In this document: positions 6,335-36,612 of the stretch, piece after piece
Position numbering within the stretch: the stretch's first letter is position 1
Layout of the letters: every line of letters begins with the position of its first letter
NCBI RefSeq assembly: GCF_022129445.1
Contig: NZ_JADQAQ010000019.1
Span: forward strand, 1 to 64,000
DNA length: 64,000 bases
Direction of reading: 5' to 3'
Origin: Photobacterium sp. Ph5
GTDB taxonomy: Bacteria > Pseudomonadota > Gammaproteobacteria > Enterobacterales > Vibrionaceae
Position numbers and translations under genes: made by a program
Notes under the pieces: model-generated
What the model saw: only the letters and a program-made list of their open reading frames with translations
Told to the model about the DNA's origin: nothing
Database searches by the model: none

Positions 6335-7099
6335 TTGGCAAACTTTTCTACTCATTTTAGTGTTGCAGCCATTGCTAGTGGTTTAACTGCTACCGCCTTC
6401 TTATCGGCTGATCATATTTCGCCATCGATGGCTATTTGGATGACATTTCTTGGCACCATTGGTGGCCTATTACCTGACATAGATTCAGATCATTCAACAT
6501 CGATGAAAGCCTTGTTCAATATCTTGGCTGGTTTTTGCTGTTTCATTTTAATTAGTCATATTTATACTCAAGTAACGATGCTTGAGTTACTGCTTTATAC
6601 CTCAGCACTCTTTATTACTATTCGCTACATGGGAAAAGCGGTTTTTGAACGTCGTACGGTCCACCGTGGTTGCTGCCATTCAATTGCCTTTGTTGTGCTT
6701 ATTGCTCTTTGCTGTGTACATGTAAGTTCAATAATTGGACATACAGCTGAAACAAGCTGGCTAGCTGGCGGATTTGTTCTCTTTGGTGGTTTAGTCCACT
6801 TAGTATTGGATGAAATTTACAGTGTTGACCTTTCCAATCAACGTCTGAAAAAGTCGTTTGGAACGGCGTTAAAACCCATCTCTTTTAGCAACCCTCTCAT
6901 TAGCTTGGCACAAATAGCGGCAATTGTTTTACTTTTTACCACCGCACCGTCTTATTACAAGACACTGCATATTTTAACCAATTGGCACCACTTCAGATTT
7001 AGTCCAACGTGGTTTAACTGGACTGATATTCAAATGTGGGTAAACCACTTTATCCATCAAGCACCACAAAAATTAAGCAGTATTCATAAGCTATTTTAA
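6335..7099 (+). CDS. Membrane-bound metal-dependent hydrolase family protein (YdjM/DUF457-like)
   Basis: A 254-residue inner-membrane protein. The N-terminus MANFSTHFSVAAIASG, the GGLLPDIDSDHS motif at about residues 44-55 and the histidine cluster HRGCCHS at about residues 109-115 match the YdjM-like family of putative membrane metal-dependent hydrolases; the Asp and His residues are probable metal ligands. About five hydrophobic segments are visible. The start is TTG at 6335, selected because the conserved MANF-x-TH N-terminus begins there and no ATG fits; GGA lies about 10 nt upstream. E. coli ydjM is in the LexA regulon, but I see no SOS box here. Substrate unknown. Confidence 0.8.
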   Translation: MANFSTHFSVAAIASGLTATAFLSADHISPSMAIWMTFLGTIGGLLPDIDSDHSTSMKALFNILAGFCCFILISHIYTQVTMLELLLYTSALFITIRYMGKAVFERRTVHRGCCHSIAFVVLIALCCVHVSSIIGHTAETSWLAGGFVLFGGLVHLVLDEIYSVDLSNQRLKKSFGTALKPISFSNPLISLAQIAAIVLLFTTAPSYYKTLHILTNWHHFRFSPTWFNWTDIQMWVNHFIHQAPQKLSSIHKLF

Positions 7100-7107
7100 G
7101 TACAACG

Positions 7108-7146
7108 AAGGCGATAAACATCTCAGTGTCTATCGCCTTTTCTTTT
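7108..7146 (+). terminator. Rho-independent terminator
   Basis: AAGGCGATA (7108-7116) pairs with TATCGCCTT (7131-7139), followed by a T-rich tail. Ends the YdjM-like gene. Confidence 0.85.
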
Positions 7147-7158
7147 ACTTACGCCTCA

Positions 7159-7174
7159 AGGCAAACGTTTGCTT
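7159..7174. promoter_or_regulatory. PurR operator upstream of purC
   Basis: The 16-mer AGGCAAACGTTTGCTT fits the PurR consensus ANGCAANCGTTTNCNT at every specified position. It lies about 125 nt upstream of the purC start, consistent with purine repression of SAICAR synthase as known in E. coli. Confidence 0.8.
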
Positions 7175-7297
7175 TTTTACTGGTAGTCACCACCTTAACC
7201 TTGTATTATGCGATTACGATGATAGATAGCCTCCTGATTTCACTTATATCGCTATCCTTCTGCATTTCTGCGTAATCATTTGAATAGGACTTTCACG

Positions 7298-8401
7298 ATG
7301 AGCCTTGCCGATCAAGTTTTAGCTGTTAATGATGATCTCCCAATCCGTACTGACAAACCCGTTCATAGCGGTAAGGTACGCTCTGTTTACTGGCTTACAG
7401 AAGCTGACAGTCAACGTTTGATTAAAGAAAAAGGCTATAACGTTCAGCCAGACGCACCACTCGCGATTATGGTTATCAGCGACCGTATTTCTGCTTTTGA
7501 CTGCATCTGGCATGGTGAAGGGGATCTTAAAGGCGTACCTGGAAAAGGCGCCGCGCTAAATGCAATATCTAATCACTGGTTTCAATTATTTAAAGATAAT
7601 GGGTTAGCTGATAGTCATATTCTTGATATCCCCCACCCTTTTGTTTGGATTGTACAAAAAGCAAAGCCCGTTATGGTTGAAGCAATTTGTCGTCAATACA
7701 TTACAGGTTCAATGTGGCGAGCATACAGCAAAGGTGAGCGTAACTTCTGTGGTATTGAACTACCGGAAGGTCTAGAGAAAGACCAAAAGCTCCCAGAACT
7801 ACTCATGACACCATCAACTAAAGGTATTTTAAAAGGTATCCCGAACGTGCCTGAAGCGGATGATGTGAATGTCACCCGTGACGATTTGATAAATAACTAC
7901 GGTGCATTTAACTTCCGTAATACTGATGACATTACCCAGTATGAAAAGTTATTAGCAGAAGGGTTTAATGTTATCAGTGATGCACTTGCAAATATTGATC
8001 AAATCTTTGTTGATACTAAATTTGAATTTGGCTATGTGACAGATGCCAGTGGTAACGAAAAACTTATTTACATGGATGAAGTAGGCACACCTGATTCATC
8101 ACGTATTTGGGATGGCGCAGCTTACCGTGACGGTCAAATTATCGAAAACTCCAAAGAAGATTTCCGCCAAGTGCTGCTTAGTACCTTTCCTGAACCTGAT
8201 ATCTTATTAAATAAAGATCGTATGGAAGAGCGATTCGCCCTTGCACGTGATAACGAGTTACCACAAGACGTACTGATGCAGATCTCTAACGTTTATACAG
8301 GGATCGCTGAAAAAATCACCGGTGAGCCAATCAAACTAAGTCAAAATCCGAAAGCTGAAATCATTGAGATTTTGCACAATCAATATCAATTGATCGACTA
8401 A
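7298..8401 (+). CDS. purC: Phosphoribosylaminoimidazole-succinocarboxamide synthase (SAICAR synthase)
   Basis: Joins CAIR and aspartate with ATP in de novo purine synthesis. At 367 residues this is the long form found in Vibrionaceae and some other gammaproteobacteria, rather than the ~237-residue E. coli form. Recognisable segments are SGKVRSVYW (P-loop-like ATP contact), [23 protein letters not shown] and the signature [15 protein letters not shown]. The ATG at 7298 is chosen over an in-frame TTG six codons upstream because AGGAC lies 7 nt before it. A PurR operator lies upstream and a strong terminator downstream, so it is a single-gene unit. Confidence 0.97.
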
Positions 8402-20053: not shown

Positions 20054-22120
20054 TTATCTCGGCTTTTTACCCATTTGATCATAATAAGCTTTCTTATCTA
20101 GATACATAGCTTTATCTGCGACTTGATAAATAGTATGAACATCATGAGATTCTGTACTTGCAGACCCCATCGCAAAATGAATACCTACTTTGTCACCAGG
20201 TGGTAAACTTGCATAATGATCTTCCATTAATAGCTGTAATAAACGTTCTTTTAGCTGATTACAGCCCGCATTATCACCGTGTTTTATAATAATTGCGTAT
20301 TCGTCACCACCTAGCCGATAAACCTTATCTGTACTACGACATACACTTTTAATTAACCGCCCTGTTTCGATAAGTAATTGATCCCCCATATGGTGTCCAT
20401 ATTCATCGTTAGCTTGTTTTAACCCATTTAAATCAATCATAAACAAGCCTAAATATTGCTCTGGGTAACGGTGTGTCACTTTTACCCATTCATCAAAATC
20501 AACATCAAAGGCTTTACGATTACTCAAGCCTGTTAATGGATCGGTAATTGCGCTTCGTTCTAACTCTTCGTTTAACAATCGCCCTTCAAGTTCTGCCGAT
20601 AATTGACGAATAAATAATGAAATAATTTCATAATCATCACGCTCAATATTGGGCGTTTTCATCACAATCACACCCAGTAACTTATTATGGGTATCTACAA
20701 TTTTAAAACATTGTAAAATGGTCTCATCACTATTCACACGAAAATAATCACTACAATGAGCATCAGCATCAATGCTATCTAAACAAATTTCAGAAACCCC
20801 TTCACAAACCCAATTATTATTCTGATTAACAAACAACTTCATTCCCCATCCAGCATAAGGATACAAACTGACTAACTGTGTCATTACAGTGGAATGAATA
20901 TCACCATGTTGTAACTTATTACTAAATGACAACAATGACTGAAGCATCGTTCGACGTTTTTCTTCACGTTGTAGAGAGTGGGTTAACTCTAATGTTTTTT
21001 CATGTACCTTATTTTCAAGTTGATCATTGAATGTCATTAACTTAGTATTTTTATCTTCTAAATCACTAAGTTGCGCTTTTATTGTCATCGCCATTTTTTG
21101 AATTAAGTTATTAACCATTATTAACTCAGAAAACCTAAGATCTTTACTTGGAATATTGTAATTACCCCCTAAACAGGCTCTCACACTATCCATAAGATAA
21201 GTTAAAGGCTTAGCGAACCAACGATACGAGATTGTCGCAGTCAATAATGCAAGGATAACGACAATAATAGCGACAATCGTTAATATTTTTAATGAATTCG
21301 TAAATGGGTTTTCACCCAAGTATTTATTCATAAAAACTTGCGCGTTATAAGACATCGGCTCTGTAATATACTTGTTATCTATCGTCACAACCTCTGTTTT
21401 AGAAACTGTTGGGGTCAATGGATCTATTTTCCCTTTATAGACAACTATTTTATCCATTCCATTATGATGAAAGATAACATGCTCTCCATCTTTTAAATAA
21501 GGACGAAGAACCTTAATAATGTTTTCAACAGGTACTACAACAATTAAATACCCTAACGGATTACGCTTCAGCCCCTCAGTTAACGTTGACTGATATATTG
21601 GTACACCAATAGCAATACCTTTATGACTGGGATTAAACCTATCAGGCATTAAAGACTCATCGGCATAATTGAATACCCATTGATCACCGGTATTTTTACT
21701 GGTACTTACCTTTTGATTTAGTAATACTTTTAACCCAGAGAATGAGTTAATTCCATTAATACCATTATAATTTTCGACTTCATTCCAGTTAGCATCAACT
21801 AAATAGGCTGCTTGTACTAGAGGTGTGTTATCAACTAAATTAGCCAGTGTCGCATCGACATGACTGGTTAGAAAGAAATCATCAATACCTTGCACTAATA
21901 GTCGATCACGAGATAAAACATCTAACGCCGTGGATAATAGATAAAAACGATAATTAAACTCTTGTTTTAACGTCGTTGATAATCGATCTATTAAATCTAC
22001 TCGATAATTTGTTTCAACTTCCGTTTGTTGTTTTATTAATAATCCACCGATAATTGAAGCAGGTAAAACCGCGACGAAAACCATTAGTAGTGCCAATGAC
22101 GACTTTAATTTTAATTTCAT
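20054..22120 (-). CDS. Membrane sensor diguanylate cyclase (Cache-like, GGDEF)
   Basis: A 688-residue protein predicted to make cyclic di-GMP. Layout: transmembrane helix near residues 7-29, a periplasmic sensor of about 250 residues of the Cache type, a second helix near 280-302, a HAMP-like/coiled-coil linker (about 305-400), a GAF-like region (about 405-530), and a C-terminal GGDEF domain. The active-site loop is GGDEY (604-608), a functional variant of GGDEF, and an intact RxxD inhibitory site (RSTD, 595-598) lies five residues before it. Its ATG overlaps the stop of the upstream binding-protein gene by 4 nt, so the two are translationally coupled and probably one sensing unit. Confidence 0.9.
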   Translation of the reverse strand: MKLKLKSSLALLMVFVAVLPASIIGGLLIKQQTEVETNYRVDLIDRLSTTLKQEFNYRFYLLSTALDVLSRDRLLVQGIDDFFLTSHVDATLANLVDNTPLVQAAYLVDANWNEVENYNGINGINSFSGLKVLLNQKVSTSKNTGDQWVFNYADESLMPDRFNPSHKGIAIGVPIYQSTLTEGLKRNPLGYLIVVVPVENIIKVLRPYLKDGEHVIFHHNGMDKIVVYKGKIDPLTPTVSKTEVVTIDNKYITEPMSYNAQVFMNKYLGENPFTNSLKILTIVAIIVVILALLTATISYRWFAKPLTYLMDSVRACLGGNYNIPSKDLRFSELIMVNNLIQKMAMTIKAQLSDLEDKNTKLMTFNDQLENKVHEKTLELTHSLQREEKRRTMLQSLLSFSNKLQHGDIHSTVMTQLVSLYPYAGWGMKLFVNQNNNWVCEGVSEICLDSIDADAHCSDYFRVNSDETILQCFKIVDTHNKLLGVIVMKTPNIERDDYEIISLFIRQLSAELEGRLLNEELERSAITDPLTGLSNRKAFDVDFDEWVKVTHRYPEQYLGLFMIDLNGLKQANDEYGHHMGDQLLIETGRLIKSVCRSTDKVYRLGGDEYAIIIKHGDNAGCNQLKERLLQLLMEDHYASLPPGDKVGIHFAMGSASTESHDVHTIYQVADKAMYLDKKAYYDQMGKKPR

Positions 22121-23310
22121 TTTTTGTTCAACCTATGCCACTGCTGAATAGCAATTTTCTGCATAAACTCTGCCGTTTTTTCTGCTGATAATCCATCTTC
22201 ATAACGCTTAAAACCAATAGCCATAGCCTGCCATGCTATCGACATTTTAATTGTTGACGGCATTGGTTTAGATAATTCAAATTGCTTAAATAAAATTTCA
22301 TCATCACCTGACGCTTGATGTCTAAACTCTTTCAATAACTTTGTTGAAACAGGCAATAGACGTGTATCTTCATATATTAAATGTTGAATCCTTTCCTGTT
22401 GAATAAACTTTGCAAACTTTTCTATTAATACTTTTTTGTCTACAGAATGATTTTTATAGTTTGGTAACGATAAAAGAAAGGTGCTACTCATAGGTTGCAT
22501 TTGTTTACCATTTAGCGTTGGCAATAATGCGACACCTAAATCATCTCCCATCGATTTTTTTAGATCTTGATATGCCCAATCACCATTAATCGCATAAGCT
22601 TCTTTTCCTTCGATAAAGTCACCTTGAGAACACACATAATCACATTCGCGATTAATGATTTTTTGCTCAGACAAATAACGATAATATTTTAATGCTTTAA
22701 CCATTTCTGGTGTATTCAGTGATATTTTCCCATCGCTAATTGGCCACCCATTAAATGCTGATAAAAATGGGATAAAGTAATACATATCAAGGTAATTCCA
22801 CCCAACAGGTAAAATATTTTTATCTAACCATATTTGCTTGGATGCTATTATTTCTTTCCAAGTACGTAATGGTTGAGAAACTAACTTATTATTATAATAT
22901 AACAATAAGTTATTCCCTTGAATAACGGGTATCCCCCAATATTTATCATTAACATAAGCTGTTAACATTGCTTTTTTAGATAACTCAGGCGATAACCAAT
23001 TTTTGGGAATACTCGATAATTTCATTAACCTATGTAAGCCAATAAAATCTGATGGGAAAATGACGAGATCAGGTAGACCACCGTACTGTGCCCCCAATAA
23101 TATTTCAGCTTTTATCTTTTCAGGTTCAAATTGAACAAGTGAAATATTGATATTGTTTTCTTTTTGAAATTCTTTCACTAACAATTCAATAAAACTATTA
23201 TCTTGATGAGAATACCAAAGCGTTAATTTTTCTTCTGCATTTACAGTGAAAGAAAAAAACATAACTAAAAACATAACTAAAAACAATGTAATACTTCTTA
23301 ACATAACCAC
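22117..23310 (-). CDS. Periplasmic ABC-type solute-binding protein (family 1), orphan
   Basis: A 397-residue protein with a signal peptide (hydrophobic to about residue 25, FTVNA-E). The mature part resembles sugar-type family 1 binding proteins: LTLWYSHQDNSFIELLVKEF at the start, GLPDLVIFPSDF, WGIPVIQGNNLLLYYN and a C-terminal helical region. No permease or ATPase gene is adjacent; instead the gene overlaps a membrane diguanylate cyclase by 4 nt. That suggests a ligand-presenting role, as NspS has for MbaA in Vibrio cholerae. Ligand unknown. GTG at 23310 is preceded by AAGG at 8 nt; an ATG two codons later is the alternative. Confidence 0.88.
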   Translation of the reverse strand: MVMLRSITLFLVMFLVMFFSFTVNAEEKLTLWYSHQDNSFIELLVKEFQKENNINISLVQFEPEKIKAEILLGAQYGGLPDLVIFPSDFIGLHRLMKLSSIPKNWLSPELSKKAMLTAYVNDKYWGIPVIQGNNLLLYYNNKLVSQPLRTWKEIIASKQIWLDKNILPVGWNYLDMYYFIPFLSAFNGWPISDGKISLNTPEMVKALKYYRYLSEQKIINRECDYVCSQGDFIEGKEAYAINGDWAYQDLKKSMGDDLGVALLPTLNGKQMQPMSSTFLLSLPNYKNHSVDKKVLIEKFAKFIQQERIQHLIYEDTRLLPVSTKLLKEFRHQASGDDEILFKQFELSKPMPSTIKMSIAWQAMAIGFKRYEDGLSAEKTAEFMQKIAIQQWHRLNKK

Positions 23311-27197: not shown

Positions 27198-29738
27198 ATG
27201 CAAAAGACACTTCTTACCTGTGCGTTAGCCGTCGCCTTTAGCACATCGCATGCTTATGCGGCAGATTGTTCTAATATCGCCGAATGGCAAGCAGATATAG
27301 CCTATAATGGCGGTAGCCAAGTCCAACAAGACAATAACATATATAATGCAAATTGGTGGTCTCAAGGCAATCAGCCAGCGAGCCACTCAGGGTCTTGGCA
27401 AGAATGGACATTCGTTGATAGCTGCATGAGCAGTGGAAATCAAGATCCATCCGTAACACTGATCTCACCGCTTAATAATGCACAATTAACAGCGCAAACA
27501 GATATTACGTTAGCTGCGAACGCAAGTGATAAAGACGGTTCTATTCAACATGTTGAGTTTTTCATAAACCAACAATCTATTGCAGTTGTCGATACAGCCC
27601 CATACCAAATTAATTGGACAACGGTGCTTGGTAACTACACCATTACTGCCACAGTAACGGATAATGAAAATGCCACTAAAACAGATGTTGTGAATATTAG
27701 TGTCGTTTCAGCGAGTGAAAACCTTGCGCCAAGTATTGCAATTAGTTCACCAACATCAGATACCACTATCTTTGAAGGCGATACAGTAACGATTACAGCC
27801 GATGCCGAAGATAAAGATGGCTCAGTCACTCAGGTAGAGTTCTTTGTTGATAACCAACTAATCGCAACAAGTTCTTCTGCCCCGTTCACAGCACAATGGA
27901 CATCAACGGCTGGTAATCATCAAATTACAGCCAAAGCAACAGACAATGAAAATAGTACAACCACATCAAGTGCGATAACTCTCACTGTTGATAACGTTAT
28001 TATTGGTGGTGGTTGTGGTGATATTCCAACCTTTAAATCTGGTACTGATTATCTAACTGGCGATTTAGTAGAGAGTAATAATCATAAATACCGTTGTGAC
28101 ATCGCAGGTTGGTGTTCCTCATCATCTGATTGGGCTTATAAGCCAGGTGAGGGACAGCATTGGACAGATGCATGGACAGATTTAGGTATTTGCGCCATTG
28201 CCCCTGACGTTAAGATCACTTCTCTTAATGCTCAACAAACAGTATTAGCAGGAACCACTTTAACGATTGATACTGATGCTACTGATGCCGATGGCACTAT
28301 AGAACAAGTCAGTTTTTATGCTAACGAACAACTTATTGACACCGATCTCACAGCCCCTTATAGCACACAGTGGTTAGCATCAGACTTAGGTAATACCACA
28401 ATTAAAGTCGTTGCGACTGATAATGAAGCGAACACTAATGAAGCAAGTGCTACGGTTACTGTAAGCGATCAAGCTCTTGTTACTAGCTTAACGTCTCCAA
28501 GTAGTGGCTCTGTTGTTACACTAGGGAAAGCACTCACCCTTTCAGCAACAGCGACGGCACTAACTGGTGATGTTCGACAAGTTGATTTCATTATTAACGG
28601 CAATGTTGTTGCAACTGATAAGACTGCGCCTTATAGCACTTTTTGGACGGCGCAATCTGCAGGTAATTACACTGTCACAGCCCTCGCTACGAATGGGAAC
28701 GGTGAAACCGCACTATCAACCGCAGCCAGTGTAAAAGTTCAAGAACCAATTGAGGCTCAACATAACTTAATTGGCTATTGGCACAACTTCGTTAATGGCT
28801 CTGGCTGTCCAATACGTCTTCGTGATATTTCGCCAGCTTGGGATATTATCGATATCGCATTTGCTGATAATGACCGCAACAGCGACGGTACTGTTCATTT
28901 TAATTTATACAACGGTGACATTCGCAGTAGCTGTGAACCGCTCGATCCACAACAATTTAAAGATGATGTTCGTGAATTACGCGCACAAGGTAAAATCATC
29001 GTTCTTTCGCTTGGTGGTGCTGAAGGTACTATCACTTTAAATAACGATGCAGACCAAGCAAACTTTGTTTCAAGCTTGACTGATATTATAAATGAGTGGG
29101 GATTTGACGGGCTAGATATTGACTTAGAAAGTGGGTCGAACTTACTTCATGGTACAGAGATCCAAGCTCGTTTGCCTGTTGCGTTAAAACAAATCGAAGC
29201 CAACATTGGTGGTGATATGTATTTAACCATGGCACCAGAACATCCTTATGTTCAAGGCGGCATGATTGCCTACTCAGGAATTTGGGGCGCTTACATCCCG
29301 ATGATAAATGAGTTACGTGACATGCTAAATCTGCTGCATGTACAGCTATATAACAACGGGGGGTTAGCAAATCCATATACGTCAGGAGTAGCCCCTGAAG
29401 GATCGGTTGATATGATGGTAGCTTCAGTCAAAATGTTAGTAGAAGGGTTTGAACTGGCAGATGGCAGTCAATTTGCACCACTTCGCGATGATCAAGTTGC
29501 GATTGGCTTGCCGTCAGGGCCAAGTTCCGCGAACTCTGGACAAGCTCCAACACAAAACATTATTGATGCACTAGATTGTGTAACTAAAGGCAGTAGTTGT
29601 GGCTCGGTAGTACCGACTAAGCTTTATCCAAACTTTGGTGGTGTAATGACATGGTCGATTAACTGGGATGTTCATGATGGCTTTAATTTCTCTGGTCCTA
29701 TAGGAGATAAGCTTCAACAAATGAATAGCCAACGTTAA
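27198..29738 (+). CDS. Secreted multidomain chitinase (GH18)
   Basis: An 846-residue extracellular enzyme. Domains in order: signal peptide (1-21, ending AYA), a CBM5/12-type chitin-binding module (about 22-76, with AYNGGSQVQQDNNIYNANWW), two Ig-like modules (about 84-172 and 177-265), a second CBM5/12-like module with extra cysteines (about 271-333), two more Ig-like modules (about 337-422 and 425-513), and a C-terminal GH18 barrel (about 520-846). The catalytic motif DGLDIDLE (D637, D640, D642, E644) is complete, so it should be active. Length and layout resemble the ChiA-type enzymes of Vibrio cholerae. A strong terminator follows; a CRP site lies upstream. Confidence 0.94.
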   Translation: MQKTLLTCALAVAFSTSHAYAADCSNIAEWQADIAYNGGSQVQQDNNIYNANWWSQGNQPASHSGSWQEWTFVDSCMSSGNQDPSVTLISPLNNAQLTAQTDITLAANASDKDGSIQHVEFFINQQSIAVVDTAPYQINWTTVLGNYTITATVTDNENATKTDVVNISVVSASENLAPSIAISSPTSDTTIFEGDTVTITADAEDKDGSVTQVEFFVDNQLIATSSSAPFTAQWTSTAGNHQITAKATDNENSTTTSSAITLTVDNVIIGGGCGDIPTFKSGTDYLTGDLVESNNHKYRCDIAGWCSSSSDWAYKPGEGQHWTDAWTDLGICAIAPDVKITSLNAQQTVLAGTTLTIDTDATDADGTIEQVSFYANEQLIDTDLTAPYSTQWLASDLGNTTIKVVATDNEANTNEASATVTVSDQALVTSLTSPSSGSVVTLGKALTLSATATALTGDVRQVDFIINGNVVATDKTAPYSTFWTAQSAGNYTVTALATNGNGETALSTAASVKVQEPIEAQHNLIGYWHNFVNGSGCPIRLRDISPAWDIIDIAFADNDRNSDGTVHFNLYNGDIRSSCEPLDPQQFKDDVRELRAQGKIIVLSLGGAEGTITLNNDADQANFVSSLTDIINEWGFDGLDIDLESGSNLLHGTEIQARLPVALKQIEANIGGDMYLTMAPEHPYVQGGMIAYSGIWGAYIPMINELRDMLNLLHVQLYNNGGLANPYTSGVAPEGSVDMMVASVKMLVEGFELADGSQFAPLRDDQVAIGLPSGPSSANSGQAPTQNIIDALDCVTKGSSCGSVVPTKLYPNFGGVMTWSINWDVHDGFNFSGPIGDKLQQMNSQR

Positions 29739-33133: not shown

Positions 33134-33955
33134 ATGAAAACAAAGATTATCGGTGCAATCGCTTTAGCAGGAACAATGGTAGCTAGCACTGCAGCAATTG
33201 CAGGTGAAACTATCTCTGTTGTAGGTTCAAGCTCAGTAACACCGCTTATGGAAGTTTTTGGTGAAACTTACGCGAAAGCAAACGACGTAACAGTAGAAGT
33301 TCAAGGCCCAGGTTCATCAGCAGGTATTCGTACTGCACACGATGGCTCAGCCGATTTTGGTATGTCTTCTCGTGCGCTTAAAGCATCAGAAGAAGCACCT
33401 GAAGTAAAAGAAGTGGTTATTGCTCGTGACGGTATCGCTGTTGTTGTTAATAACAACAACCCGGTTTCTGGCCTAACAAAAGAGCAAGTTGCAAAAATCT
33501 ATAAAGGTGAAGTAACAAACTGGAAACAAGTTGGCGGTGAAGATAAGCCAATCGTTGTTGCTACACGTGATACAGCATCAGGTACTCGTGGTGCTTTTGA
33601 AGACATCATGAAACTAAAGAAAAAAATCAATGGCGTTAAAGTTTCAGCTATTTCACAGAAAGCACAAGTTGCAAGTGGTAATGGTCAGCTGAAAACAACA
33701 GTTGCAAACAACCCATTTGCTATTGGTTACATCTCTTTAGGTTCAGTAGATAACACAGTTAAACCGCTAGCTATCGACGGCCACAAACCTTCTGTTGCAG
33801 CAATCAAATCTGGTGACTACACAGTTCAGCGTCCATTCCTTGTTGTATACAAAGAAGGTCGTCCATCTGCTGAAGCTCTAAAATTCCTATCTTGGATGAA
33901 AACAGCTGACGCACAGAAACTTGTTGAGAACAAAGGCTTCATCTCTACACATTAA
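33134..33955 (+). CDS. pstS: Phosphate ABC transporter, periplasmic phosphate-binding protein
   Basis: A 273-residue secreted protein with a signal peptide (cleavage after IAG or ASTAAIA near residue 23). It is the short PstS form common in Vibrionaceae: ISVVGSSSVTPLMEVFGE, GPGSSAGIRTAHDGSADFGMSSR and RDTASGTRGAFE are the phosphate-contacting loops. It captures phosphate for PstCAB. AGGA lies 7-8 nt before the ATG. An internal terminator-like hairpin separates it from pstC, which probably gives higher PstS than permease levels. Confidence 0.96.
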   Translation: MKTKIIGAIALAGTMVASTAAIAGETISVVGSSSVTPLMEVFGETYAKANDVTVEVQGPGSSAGIRTAHDGSADFGMSSRALKASEEAPEVKEVVIARDGIAVVVNNNNPVSGLTKEQVAKIYKGEVTNWKQVGGEDKPIVVATRDTASGTRGAFEDIMKLKKKINGVKVSAISQKAQVASGNGQLKTTVANNPFAIGYISLGSVDNTVKPLAIDGHKPSVAAIKSGDYTVQRPFLVVYKEGRPSAEALKFLSWMKTADAQKLVENKGFISTH

Positions 33956-33965
33956 TTAGTATTTT

Positions 33966-33996
33966 ACGCTCAGCTCATATGGGCTGAGCGTTTTTT
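33966..33996 (+). terminator. Partial terminator between pstS and pstC
   Basis: ACGCTCAGC (33966-33974) pairs with GCTGAGCGT (33983-33991), followed by T-run 33991-33996. It lies inside the operon, so some read-through into pstCAB is expected. Confidence 0.8.
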
Positions 33997-34041
33997 GTTT
34001 GTCAGTAACTGGTCACTTTTGTACTGGTTCTGGAGTAAGTA

Positions 34042-34953
34042 ATGACCATCGCGAATATTGAAAAAACAGCAAAGAGCACTTCTTCGCTAAAATCAAAAAA
34101 ACGAATTGATTGGCGAGAAATATTCTTTAAAAATCTATTTATGTTAAGTGCCGCTATCGGCATTTTATCTCTGGTTACCATTGGCTACTTTATTTTCCGT
34201 GAAGGTTATGCAGCCTTTGCGCAAGCTGGTGTATCTGGCATCGTTCTTGGTACTGATTGGTTGCCACCAGCGCTATACGGTATAGCACCAATGATTGTCG
34301 CATCATTGGTTTCAACAGCTGGTGCTGTCGTATTAGGTGTACCTATTGGTGTTTTAACTGCTATTTTTATTGCAGAAGTAGCCCCAAAACGCCTAGCCGA
34401 TTTAATTCGTCCAATGATCGAACTACTAGCGGGTATTCCTTCTGTCGTTTATGGTTTCTTTGGCTTAGTTATTATCGTACCACTTATCCAAGATGTATTT
34501 AATGTTCCTGCTGGTAACACTATTCTGGCGGGTATCATCGTGCTTGCCGTAATGATCTTACCAACAGTTATTACGGTATCTGAAACCTCTATTCGCGCTG
34601 TACCTCGTGCGTATAAAGAGGGTTCTTTGGCATTGGGAGCATCATCGATGTTCACCATTTTCAAACTACTGGTTCCGGCAGCTCGCTCAGGCATCATGAC
34701 TGGCGTCATCTTAGGTGTTGCTCGTGCTCTGGGTGAAACGATGGCAATTATCATGGTGATGGGTAACTCCCCTGCTATGCCTGAAGGTCTACTAGAGTCT
34801 GCACGTACGTTAACAGCGAATATTGCAATCGAAATGTCTTACGCAACCGGTATTCACGCCAGCGCATTGTACGCTACAGGTATTGTCCTTCTGGTTTTCA
34901 TCATGATGCTAAACGGTGCGCTTTTGTTTTTAAACCGTGAGCGTGCGAGGTAA
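34042..34953 (+). CDS. pstC: Phosphate ABC transporter permease PstC
   Basis: A 303-residue inner-membrane permease with six main hydrophobic helices after a basic N-terminus of about 30 residues. The cytoplasmic coupling loop AVPRAYKEGSLALGAS and the ELLAGIPSVVYGFFGL segment are typical of PstC/PstA. Partner of PstA; together they form the channel energised by PstB. Lies 5 nt before pstA. Confidence 0.95.
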   Translation: MTIANIEKTAKSTSSLKSKKRIDWREIFFKNLFMLSAAIGILSLVTIGYFIFREGYAAFAQAGVSGIVLGTDWLPPALYGIAPMIVASLVSTAGAVVLGVPIGVLTAIFIAEVAPKRLADLIRPMIELLAGIPSVVYGFFGLVIIVPLIQDVFNVPAGNTILAGIIVLAVMILPTVITVSETSIRAVPRAYKEGSLALGASSMFTIFKLLVPAARSGIMTGVILGVARALGETMAIIMVMGNSPAMPEGLLESARTLTANIAIEMSYATGIHASALYATGIVLLVFIMMLNGALLFLNRERAR

Positions 34954-34958
34954 AAGTA

Positions 34959-35846
34959 ATGTCTTTAACAACAAATACATCGGCATTGGCTAAAGCCAAT
35001 CCTAAAGCACAAAAACGTAAAGATCAGATAGCCTTATCTTTGATTTGGTTATCAGCAGGCGTTACGGTTGGTTTTTTACTTTGGGTGATTTGGTACATTT
35101 TAAGTAATGGTCTTGCCCATGTTAATTGGTCCTTTATTACTTCTGACTACACCACTATTGATAAAGAGTCAGGAATTTGGCCGATGATCGTCTCAACTAT
35201 CTATATGGTTATTGCTTCTATCTCAGTTGCAGCACCATTAGGTATTATGACGGCTATCTACTTAACGGAATACGCAAAAGTAGGCAGTCGTTTAGTTAAA
35301 GTAATTCGATTCTGTACAGAATCACTCGCCGGTATTCCATCAATTATTTATGGTTTATTCGGTATGACATTCTTCGTTGTGGTAATGGGTTTTGGCTATT
35401 CAATTTTATCGGGTGCATTAACACTCAGTATTTTGATTCTGCCTGTTATTATTCGAACCACAGAAGAAGCACTAATGGCTGTTCCTCAAACCTACCGTGA
35501 AGGTTCATATGGTTTAGGCGCATCTAAAATCTACACCATCTGGCGACTTATTCTTCCTAGTGCAATGCCTGGAATTGTAACGTCTATCATCCTCAGTGTC
35601 GGTCGTGTAATTGGCGAATCCGCACCGGTATTTATGACCGCAGGTATGGTTGCACGTATACCTGAAAGTGTTTTTGACTCTGGTCGAACACTTACCGTGC
35701 ACCTTTATAAGTTAACCCAAGAACTTTACACCGTTCATGAATGGAATCAGGCATACGGTACTGCCACCGTTCTTATTGTTGTTGTTCTTATTATTAACTT
35801 AATTACCAAACTAATTGCCAGCCGTTTCAACACTGCGACTTACTAA
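34959..35846 (+). CDS. pstA: Phosphate ABC transporter permease PstA
   Basis: A 295-residue inner-membrane permease, second half of the PstCA channel. Helix-loop signatures [17 protein letters not shown] and [16 protein letters not shown] are present. The start has a GTAA spacer after the pstC stop, and the stop lies 16 nt before the pstB ATG, so pstC-pstA-pstB are cotranscribed. Confidence 0.95.
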
Positions 35847-35862
35847 TTTTGAGGAAGATAAA

Positions 35863-36612
35863 ATGAATAAATTTAATATTGAAAACCTAGATCTTTACTA
35901 CGGTCAGAACCAAGCGCTAAAACAAATTAACTTACCGATTCCTAATCGTCAGGTAACGGCTCTTATTGGCCCATCAGGTTGTGGTAAATCTACCCTACTT
36001 CGTTGCCTTAACCGCATGAATGATCTTATTGAAGGCGTAAGCATCAAAGGATCACTGACCATGGATAGCGAAGATGTTTATGGCAATATTGATGTGGCAC
36101 AGCTACGTATTAAAGTCGGCATGGTATTCCAAAAACCAAACCCATTCCCAATGAGCATTTACGAAAACGTTGCTTATGGTCTACGTGCACAAGGCGTTAA
36201 AGATAAAAAAAACCTTGATGAGATTGTAGAGCAATCTCTTCGTGGTGCCGCATTATGGGACGAAGTAAAAGATCGTTTGAAATCACACGCATTTGGCCTG
36301 TCGGGTGGTCAGCAGCAACGTTTATGTATTGCACGTACAATCGCAATGAAGCCTGAAGTTATTTTGATGGATGAACCAACATCCGCACTTGATCCTATTG
36401 CAACCAAGAAAATTGAAGATTTAATGGAGTCACTGAAGAAAGATTTCACCATTGTTATCGTTACTCACTCAATGCAGCAAGCACGTCGTATCTCGGATCG
36501 TACTGCATTTTTCCTTATGGGTGAATTAGTTGAACATGATGAAACACAAAACCTGTTTACTAACCCTCAAGATGATCGCACTCGTGGTTATGTAAATGGT
36601 GATTTTGGTTAA
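35863..36612 (+). CDS. pstB: Phosphate ABC transporter ATP-binding protein PstB
   Basis: A 249-residue ATPase with Walker [10 protein letters not shown] (36-44), Q-loop VFQKPNPFP, signature LSGGQQQR, Walker [14 protein letters not shown] and the switch histidine in VTHSMQQ. The ATG at 35863 follows GAGGAAG at a suitable distance; a longer frame overlapping pstA has no support. No phoU gene follows, as in one of the two pst loci found in many Vibrionaceae, so PhoU is expected elsewhere. Confidence 0.97.

Follow-up and report, generated by a model that had tools for sequence, protein, structure and literature searches.

A MalE-like solute-binding protein encoded with a membrane diguanylate cyclase in Photobacterium and other Vibrionaceae: a probable two-protein receptor

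What is the role of a periplasmic solute-binding protein (SBP) when its gene overlaps that of a membrane diguanylate cyclase and no sugar permease lies beside it? The question is raised by a locus of Photobacterium sp. Ph5, in a window of 64,000 nucleotides (positions 1 to 64,000 of contig NZ_JADQAQ010000019.1, i.e., the whole stretch of DNA that was analysed). Two open reading frames (ORFs) were confirmed there, both on the minus strand, as are all the features of the pair described below: the SBP gene (22117-23310; GTG start, 397 residues) and the cyclase gene (20054-22120; ATG start, 688 residues). As the initial annotation had stated, the two genes overlap by 4 nucleotides, in the form of an ATGA (22117-22120) that holds the start of the cyclase and the stop of the SBP. 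By itself such an overlap is unremarkable; what is notable is that it has been kept in 71 of 72 loci. By analogy with the NspS-MbaA system, the pair would be a single two-protein receptor, with a MalE-type SBP and an output consisting of a cyclase only, a reading to which we give a probability of about 0.75.

Conservation of the gene pair

The pair was surveyed in 329 genomes of the Vibrionaceae, from 13 genera, with no more than five first-look candidates scored per genome, using a profile of the cyclase's sensor part (15 rows, E <= 1e-15) and a profile of the SBP (24 rows, E <= 1e-50). The sensor was found in 72 genomes, belonging to three genera, and the SBP in 73; 71 genomes carry both, two the SBP only and one the sensor only. 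All 71 pairs are adjacent, on the same strand and with overlapping frames, the overlap (counted from first-start ORFs) being 4 nucleotides in 59, 1 nucleotide in nine and longer in three. Co-conservation of the SBP with the cyclase, which had been named beforehand as a check on the link between them, is therefore borne out, and it extends beyond Photobacterium: the pair is carried by marine Photobacterium, Vibrio and Aliivibrio.

In the genus set (52 genomes), the SBP is at least 49% identical to that of the window in 22 other genomes, and the copy in one further genome (G005) is about 27-28% identical; the cyclase without its GGDEF part was found in the same 23 others, i.e., together with the window genome, in 24 of 52. 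SBP and cyclase are adjacent and on one strand in every one of the 23 genus loci fetched. A scan of named genomes used two peptide patterns from close relatives, which is probably why Photobacterium alone was returned; it gave 18 sensor loci, all 18 with an SBP ORF alongside, from Photobacterium angustum, lucens, piscicola, kishitanii, phosphoreum, carnosum, iliopiscarium, aquimaris, malacitanum, damselae, lipolyticum, profundum, frigidiphilum and indicum, and from four strains or metagenome bins without a species name. Within the genus, the window genome is probably close to strain SKA34 and P. angustum. The alignments used held 23 of 24 rows (A2, the broken cyclase of G021 being left out), 15 of the 24 genus sensors (A3), 29 of 72 (A4), and 31 paired SBPs with that of G166 (A5). 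Among 368 other genomes of the class, there were no full-length sensors at E <= 1e-10 and no SBPs at E <= 1e-40, in a sample that is thin and scored for at most five candidates per genome, so that remote members, or additional ones in a genome, may have escaped notice; a wide sensor profile gave partial matches in three genomes, all inside profile positions 235-384, the HAMP and coiled-coil part.

The surroundings of the pair have not been kept. When up to two flanking ORFs per side (at least 100 residues, chosen by length) were compared for the 71 pairs, they fell into 59 families, each of them present at 25 loci at most; the loci themselves split into four groups (of 64, 3, 2 and 2) without any common neighbour family. 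Thus, it is the gene unit that is conserved, not the surrounding region. The pair of G005, a Photobacterium by genus label, illustrates this unit: it is 69% identical in the SBP and 59% in the cyclase to the pair at L140, a locus of g12, and about 27% and 26% identical, respectively, to the pair of the window. In a tree of 35 paired SBPs and six others, the SBP of G005 nests among those of g12 with a support of 100/99. As both of its genes are g12-like, the SBP and the cyclase seem to have moved together.

The two proteins and the transporter question

The SBP matches two Pfam families above their curated cut-offs: SBP_bac_8 (2.7e-18; 67.2 bits, cut-off 27) and SBP_bac_1 (4.8e-14; 53.5 bits, cut-off 26), in agreement with its earlier description as a periplasmic family 1-type SBP. 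A signal peptide is predicted from hydropathy and sequence reading at residues 1-25 (23236-23310), with a likely cleavage site at VNA/EE; no lipobox was seen on reading it. The best NCBIfam model is MalE (1.7e-30, 106 bits), at a score below the 291-bit equivalog cut-off, and no MalF/MalG partner was found for the protein (with a MalG query genome-wide and MalF at the loci), so the SBP is MalE-like and not MalE proper. A structure model of moderate quality (predicted local distance difference test, pLDDT, 65) has chains containing maltose-binding protein (MBP) as its top Foldseek rows, suggesting that the fold is shared with MalE. It had also been claimed that the family of the SBP differs from that of NspS, which we take to be a PotD-like binding protein. 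At the level of the subfamily the distinction stands (MalE-like as against PotD-like); at the level of the Pfam family it does not, as PF13416 also matches apparent PotD-type proteins of the window genome.

Alignment to the MBP chains, in what we take to be mature MBP numbering, places several residues of the SBP at ligand-contact positions, and these were counted over 66 intact pairs. Asp88 (23047-23049) corresponds to MBP D65 and is D in 66 of 66; Tyr177 (22780-22782) to Y155, Y in 66 of 66; Trp245 (22576-22578) to W230, W in 66 of 66; Trp360 (22231-22233) to W340, W in 65 of 66; and Met350 aligns with M330, M in 64 of 66. Unlike MalE, the SBP has F89 (63 of 66) and N133 (65 of 66) where MBP has R66 and E111, and the place of MBP W62 also holds a different residue. 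The ligand-site positions are near-invariant although the SBPs are mostly 20-30% identical to that of the window, which argues that the ligand has been kept. Stacking aromatics are typical of carbohydrate-binding sites. From the residues at these positions, we infer that the ligand is most likely a carbohydrate, probably other than maltose.

The same positions bear on the possibility that the SBP has ceased to bind a small ligand and supports the structure or stability of the cyclase constitutively, with the Cache-like domain of the cyclase sensing the signal directly, e.g., divalent cations. Cache domains often bind ligands directly, and the relative MifB of Vibrio fischeri (see below) has a published tie, in the accessible part of its source, to magnesium-dependent motility; a scaffold, however, would not need near-invariant MBP-contact positions in proteins so divergent, and we regard this explanation as distinctly unlikely.

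The cyclase is predicted to be a membrane diguanylate cyclase by Pfam, NCBIfam and an AlphaFold2 model. By hydropathy it has two strongly hydrophobic stretches (residues about 1-31 and about 271-303), and its parts are, in order, a transmembrane helix, a long periplasmic part, a transmembrane helix, a coiled coil, a second globular domain and a GGDEF domain. The periplasmic part (residues 30-271; 21308-22033) lies between the two helices. It had been described as a Cache sensor, a label that is weakly supported: Pfam gave no Cache match in the window protein, dCache_1 matched three of 29 aligned relatives (best 4.1e-6), and the AlphaFold2 model reads as having a Cache-like order of helices and strands. 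The sensor profile found nothing below E 0.07 among PDB sequences, and searches by Foldseek and VIA with the model of the cyclase gave rows mainly on residues 408-680, i.e., mostly on the cytoplasmic part. The second globular domain (residues about 404-493; 20642-20911) is probably GAF-like, judging from the order of its elements in the model. The GGDEF domain (residues 520-684; 20069-20563), also recovered by NCBIfam and structure search, is the sole Pfam match (5.5e-31, 108 bits), and the Pfam scan gave no EAL domain. Within it, the intact active site and inhibitory site of the initial annotation can be read directly as RSTD-x5-GGDEY, comprising an RxxD motif (RSTD, residues 595-598; 20327-20338) and the GGDEY motif (residues 604-608; 20297-20311). 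A GGDEF, GGDEY or GGDEL motif is present in 68 of the 72 first ORFs of the cyclase loci, the other four being broken or short. RxxD is present in the Photobacterium cyclases except that of G005 and the broken gene of G021, and at the tested spacing it occurs in none of the 48 loci outside Photobacterium; product feedback therefore probably differs between groups.

Is there a transporter for the SBP? The initial annotation had seen no permease or ATPase nearby, and for sugar transporters this holds: the nearest ATP-binding cassette (ABC) genes seen in the window read as PstSCAB (Pst-type, phosphate; 33134-36612), about 10 kilobases off. In the window genome, nine places match SBP_bac_8; for the general ABC permease family there are 35. 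Against its 116 contigs, a MalG query gave at best 3.7e-8, to permeases of 235-257 residues (MalF was not searched genome-wide), so that a dedicated sugar permease elsewhere, named beforehand as a finding that would tell against the signalling link, did not emerge. For the 72 loci, MalG, MalF, PstC, PstA, ProW and two other permeases were compared by BLAST with all ORFs: MalG and MalF gave nothing at 1e-4, and the sole matches were two ORFs, a PstC-type one at L071 and another at L073. ABC ATPase queries matched L156 and L179 (read as CydDC-like) and L184 (read as Opp-like). A permease scan by regular expressions was dropped as a poor detector, having picked up only the two MalG proteins among nine permease controls. 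In three other Photobacterium genomes, G009, G017 and G051 (L083-L085), a separate MalE-like gene adjoins MalF/MalG-like genes at another locus, which appears to set the pair apart from maltose import in these genomes.

These results can be set against plain co-transcription, in which the SBP would feed a sugar to another transporter, the cyclase would sense a ligand of its own, and the overlap would merely secure equal expression. Gene overlaps occur widely within operons, an SBP can work with a permease whose gene lies at another place, and a permease could be missed in a genome in 116 contigs. Yet no MalG-like permease was found in that genome and no MalF/MalG-like protein at the 72 loci; the pair has been kept across varied neighbourhoods; a histidine kinase replaces the cyclase once; and in G009, G017 and G051 the MalF/MalG-like genes have a MalE-like gene of their own. 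Co-transcription alone thus seems an unlikely explanation.

Weighing the proposed two-protein receptor

Distances were compared for 66 of the 71 pairs (L065, L156, L160, L172 and L187 were left out as broken or short): those of the SBP correlate with those of the sensor at 0.970, of the middle part at 0.957 and of the GGDEF part at 0.947, and in 999 permutations the value for SBP and sensor was never attained. As shared descent inflates every one of these correlations, the informative part is the contrast between the partial values: 0.717 for SBP and sensor given GGDEF, as against 0.377 for SBP and GGDEF given the sensor and 0.443 for SBP and middle part given the sensor. The divergence of the SBP is closer to that of the sensor than to that of the GGDEF part of the same protein, which favours contact and so tells against the SBP being a mere ligand reservoir, which would concentrate or sequester a ligand bound by the cyclase's own domain without docking on it. 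With a reservoir, the two genes could co-occur although the proteins share no interface, and the cyclase could stand alone as it does in one genome (G121); the explanation is nonetheless very improbable in our estimation.

There are three genomes in which the pairing fails, and two of them look decayed. In G121 the cyclase lies behind a serC-like gene without an SBP gene, and in G127 a truncated SBP lies behind the same serC-like gene with no sensor match. In the third, G166 (L189, 3616-6710), the SBP is 34% identical to that of the window, and the gene that begins 2 nucleotides after it encodes a histidine kinase instead of a cyclase. The N-terminal half of this kinase matches the 29-row sensor profile at positions 4-397 with 45.6 bits (best-domain i-Evalue 4.7e-15; a search of three sequences with filters off). 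With moderate confidence, we take G166 to be a single case in which the output was exchanged and the pairing of SBP and sensor retained; its row in the SBP tree is long and its placement unsure.

Several observations weigh against a dedicated receptor. The sensor match of the G166 kinase is a remote one, and two unrelated control receptors were also matched, the better with 20.1 bits (its best domain at positions 219-361 of the profile, in the HAMP part) and the other with 7.5 bits. Four loci (L065, L156, L172 and L187, of G021, G106, G252 and G065) combine a broken or short cyclase ORF with an open SBP ORF, through either recent decay or sequencing error, and in G055 (L160, about 6955-8100) the SBP frame is interrupted near the N-terminus and the cyclase frame is whole. 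Taken with the lone cyclase of G121, the latter indicates that the cyclase may have functions without the SBP. The tree does not settle whether the paired SBPs form a single clade, as MalE and the SBP of contig C43 stand at an unresolved fork with the Photobacterium SBPs. The distance correlations are all inflated by the shared ancestry of neighbouring genes, and their contrast is without a significance test. The replacement of MBP R66 and E111 makes maltose an unlikely ligand. Finally, the cue tied to MifB in print, so far as its source is accessible, is magnesium, not a sugar.

With these points taken into account, the two-protein receptor may be pictured as follows, docking, the class of ligand and the sign of control being what we infer within it. 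The exported MalE-like SBP would bind a small periplasmic ligand, most likely a carbohydrate and probably not maltose; the liganded (or unliganded) SBP would dock on the cyclase at its Cache-like domain in the periplasm; the resulting change would travel via the second transmembrane helix and the coiled coil and alter cyclic-di-GMP synthesis by the GGDEF domain; and the altered cyclic-di-GMP would affect motility or attachment.

SBP-controlled cyclic-di-GMP enzymes are already known as a kind. In NspS-MbaA of Vibrio cholerae, with homologues in Sinorhizobium meliloti, a periplasmic binding protein controls a membrane cyclic-di-GMP enzyme by interaction (PMC8967002; PMC9993111), the view being that NspS, once it has bound its ligand, associates with MbaA and favours cyclase activity (PMC8967002), according to the accessible text of these papers. 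The pair of the window is alike in combining a binding protein with a membrane cyclic-di-GMP enzyme, but NspS senses polyamines and MbaA has both GGDEF and EAL domains, whereas the window pair has a MalE-like SBP and GGDEF only. In Salmonella, the dCACHE-type diguanylate cyclase STM1987 needs a periplasmic binding protein for its response to L-arginine, as described in the part of the source available (PMC8846402); that protein, ArtI, binds arginine, in contrast to the window SBP, which is MalE-like and encoded with its cyclase. A MalE-type dedicated SBP, a cyclase-only output, a spread across the Vibrionaceae, the kinase case and the link to MifB were not described among the literature matches listed, in a literature of which most subscription papers are unsearchable.

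MifB of Vibrio fischeri and the wider family

Both L160 and L163 (g2) contain exactly the published cloning primers for V. fischeri VF_A0959 (mifB), and L160 contains three of the four mifB deletion primers exactly and the other with a single mismatch, i.e., five of six primers in all are exact; the outer knockout primer 2753 falls within the upstream SBP ORF (the primers are from the accessible parts of PMC11575326 and PMC9426504). On the strength of these primer sequences, the Aliivibrio member of the cyclase family is mifB. The g2 members were picked up by the sensor profile and have the same gene arrangement as the window pair, the cyclase gene being preceded by an SBP gene that overlaps it in L160, L161 and L163; the SBP frame is open in L161 and L163, and the interrupted one is that of L160, the best match to the mifB primers. 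Over about 710 aligned columns, the cyclases of L160 and L163 are 24-25% identical to that of the window, and the identity of their SBPs to the window SBP is about 30%, so the link to MifB is one of family membership and not of close orthology. MifB differs from the window cyclase in being without RxxD at the tested spacing and in its published cue, magnesium.

As far as the accessible text of PMC11575326 goes, MifB regulates magnesium-dependent motility (citing O'Shea 2006), its overexpression raises a cyclic-di-GMP reporter and lowers motility, and it has no significant effect on cellulose; in that of PMC10804989, mifB is down-regulated in both biofilm models compared. An SBP partner of MifB is not named in the searchable literature, nor was VF_A0960 (VFA0960) found there by name. 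We tentatively propose, at a chance we would put just short of even, that the Vibrionaceae have a family of carbohydrate-gated cyclic-di-GMP receptors, in which the MalE-type SBP would be a dedicated signalling subunit and the outputs (cyclase or histidine kinase) would be exchangeable, and of which MifB would be a member. What MifB does in magnesium-dependent flagellation would then in truth, or in addition, be under the control of a periplasmic ligand-binding partner that has gone unrecognised.

Three further SBP genes of the window genome were noted. In contig C60 (L089, G000:C60, 7113-10687), the gene of a second orphan SBP_bac_1-type protein and that of a histidine kinase overlap by 8 nucleotides (first-start ORFs). 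A response-regulator-like gene lies upstream, the ABC genes farther out look like those of a glycine-betaine system, and no sugar permease lies beside the SBP. A third orphan SBP_bac_1-type protein comes directly after a methyl-accepting chemotaxis protein in contig C1 (L088, G000:C1, 409-3737). Together with the pair of the window, the orphan SBPs of this genome thus adjoin three types of receptor: cyclase, kinase and chemoreceptor. In contig C43 (L087, G000:C43, 5358-8762), a 405-residue SBP_bac_8 protein follows a 715-residue membrane protein, with no permease directly adjoining.

Around the pair itself, Pfam places a gene for a PepSY-type protein directly downstream and a divergent NlpC/P60 gene upstream. 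Further along the window (27198-29738) is the gene of an 846-residue secreted protein with repeated Ig-like stretches, in which the sequence reads as containing a chitinase-type (GH18) domain.

Most diguanylate cyclases are, to our knowledge, without a known signal. Here, a family of cyclases found in 72 of 329 Vibrionaceae genomes comes with a probable ligand-binding subunit attached, so that a soluble protein can be screened in the search for its signal. For MifB of the squid symbiont V. fischeri, the input of which is unexplained beyond magnesium in the accessible text of its sources, the SBP is a concrete and testable partner.

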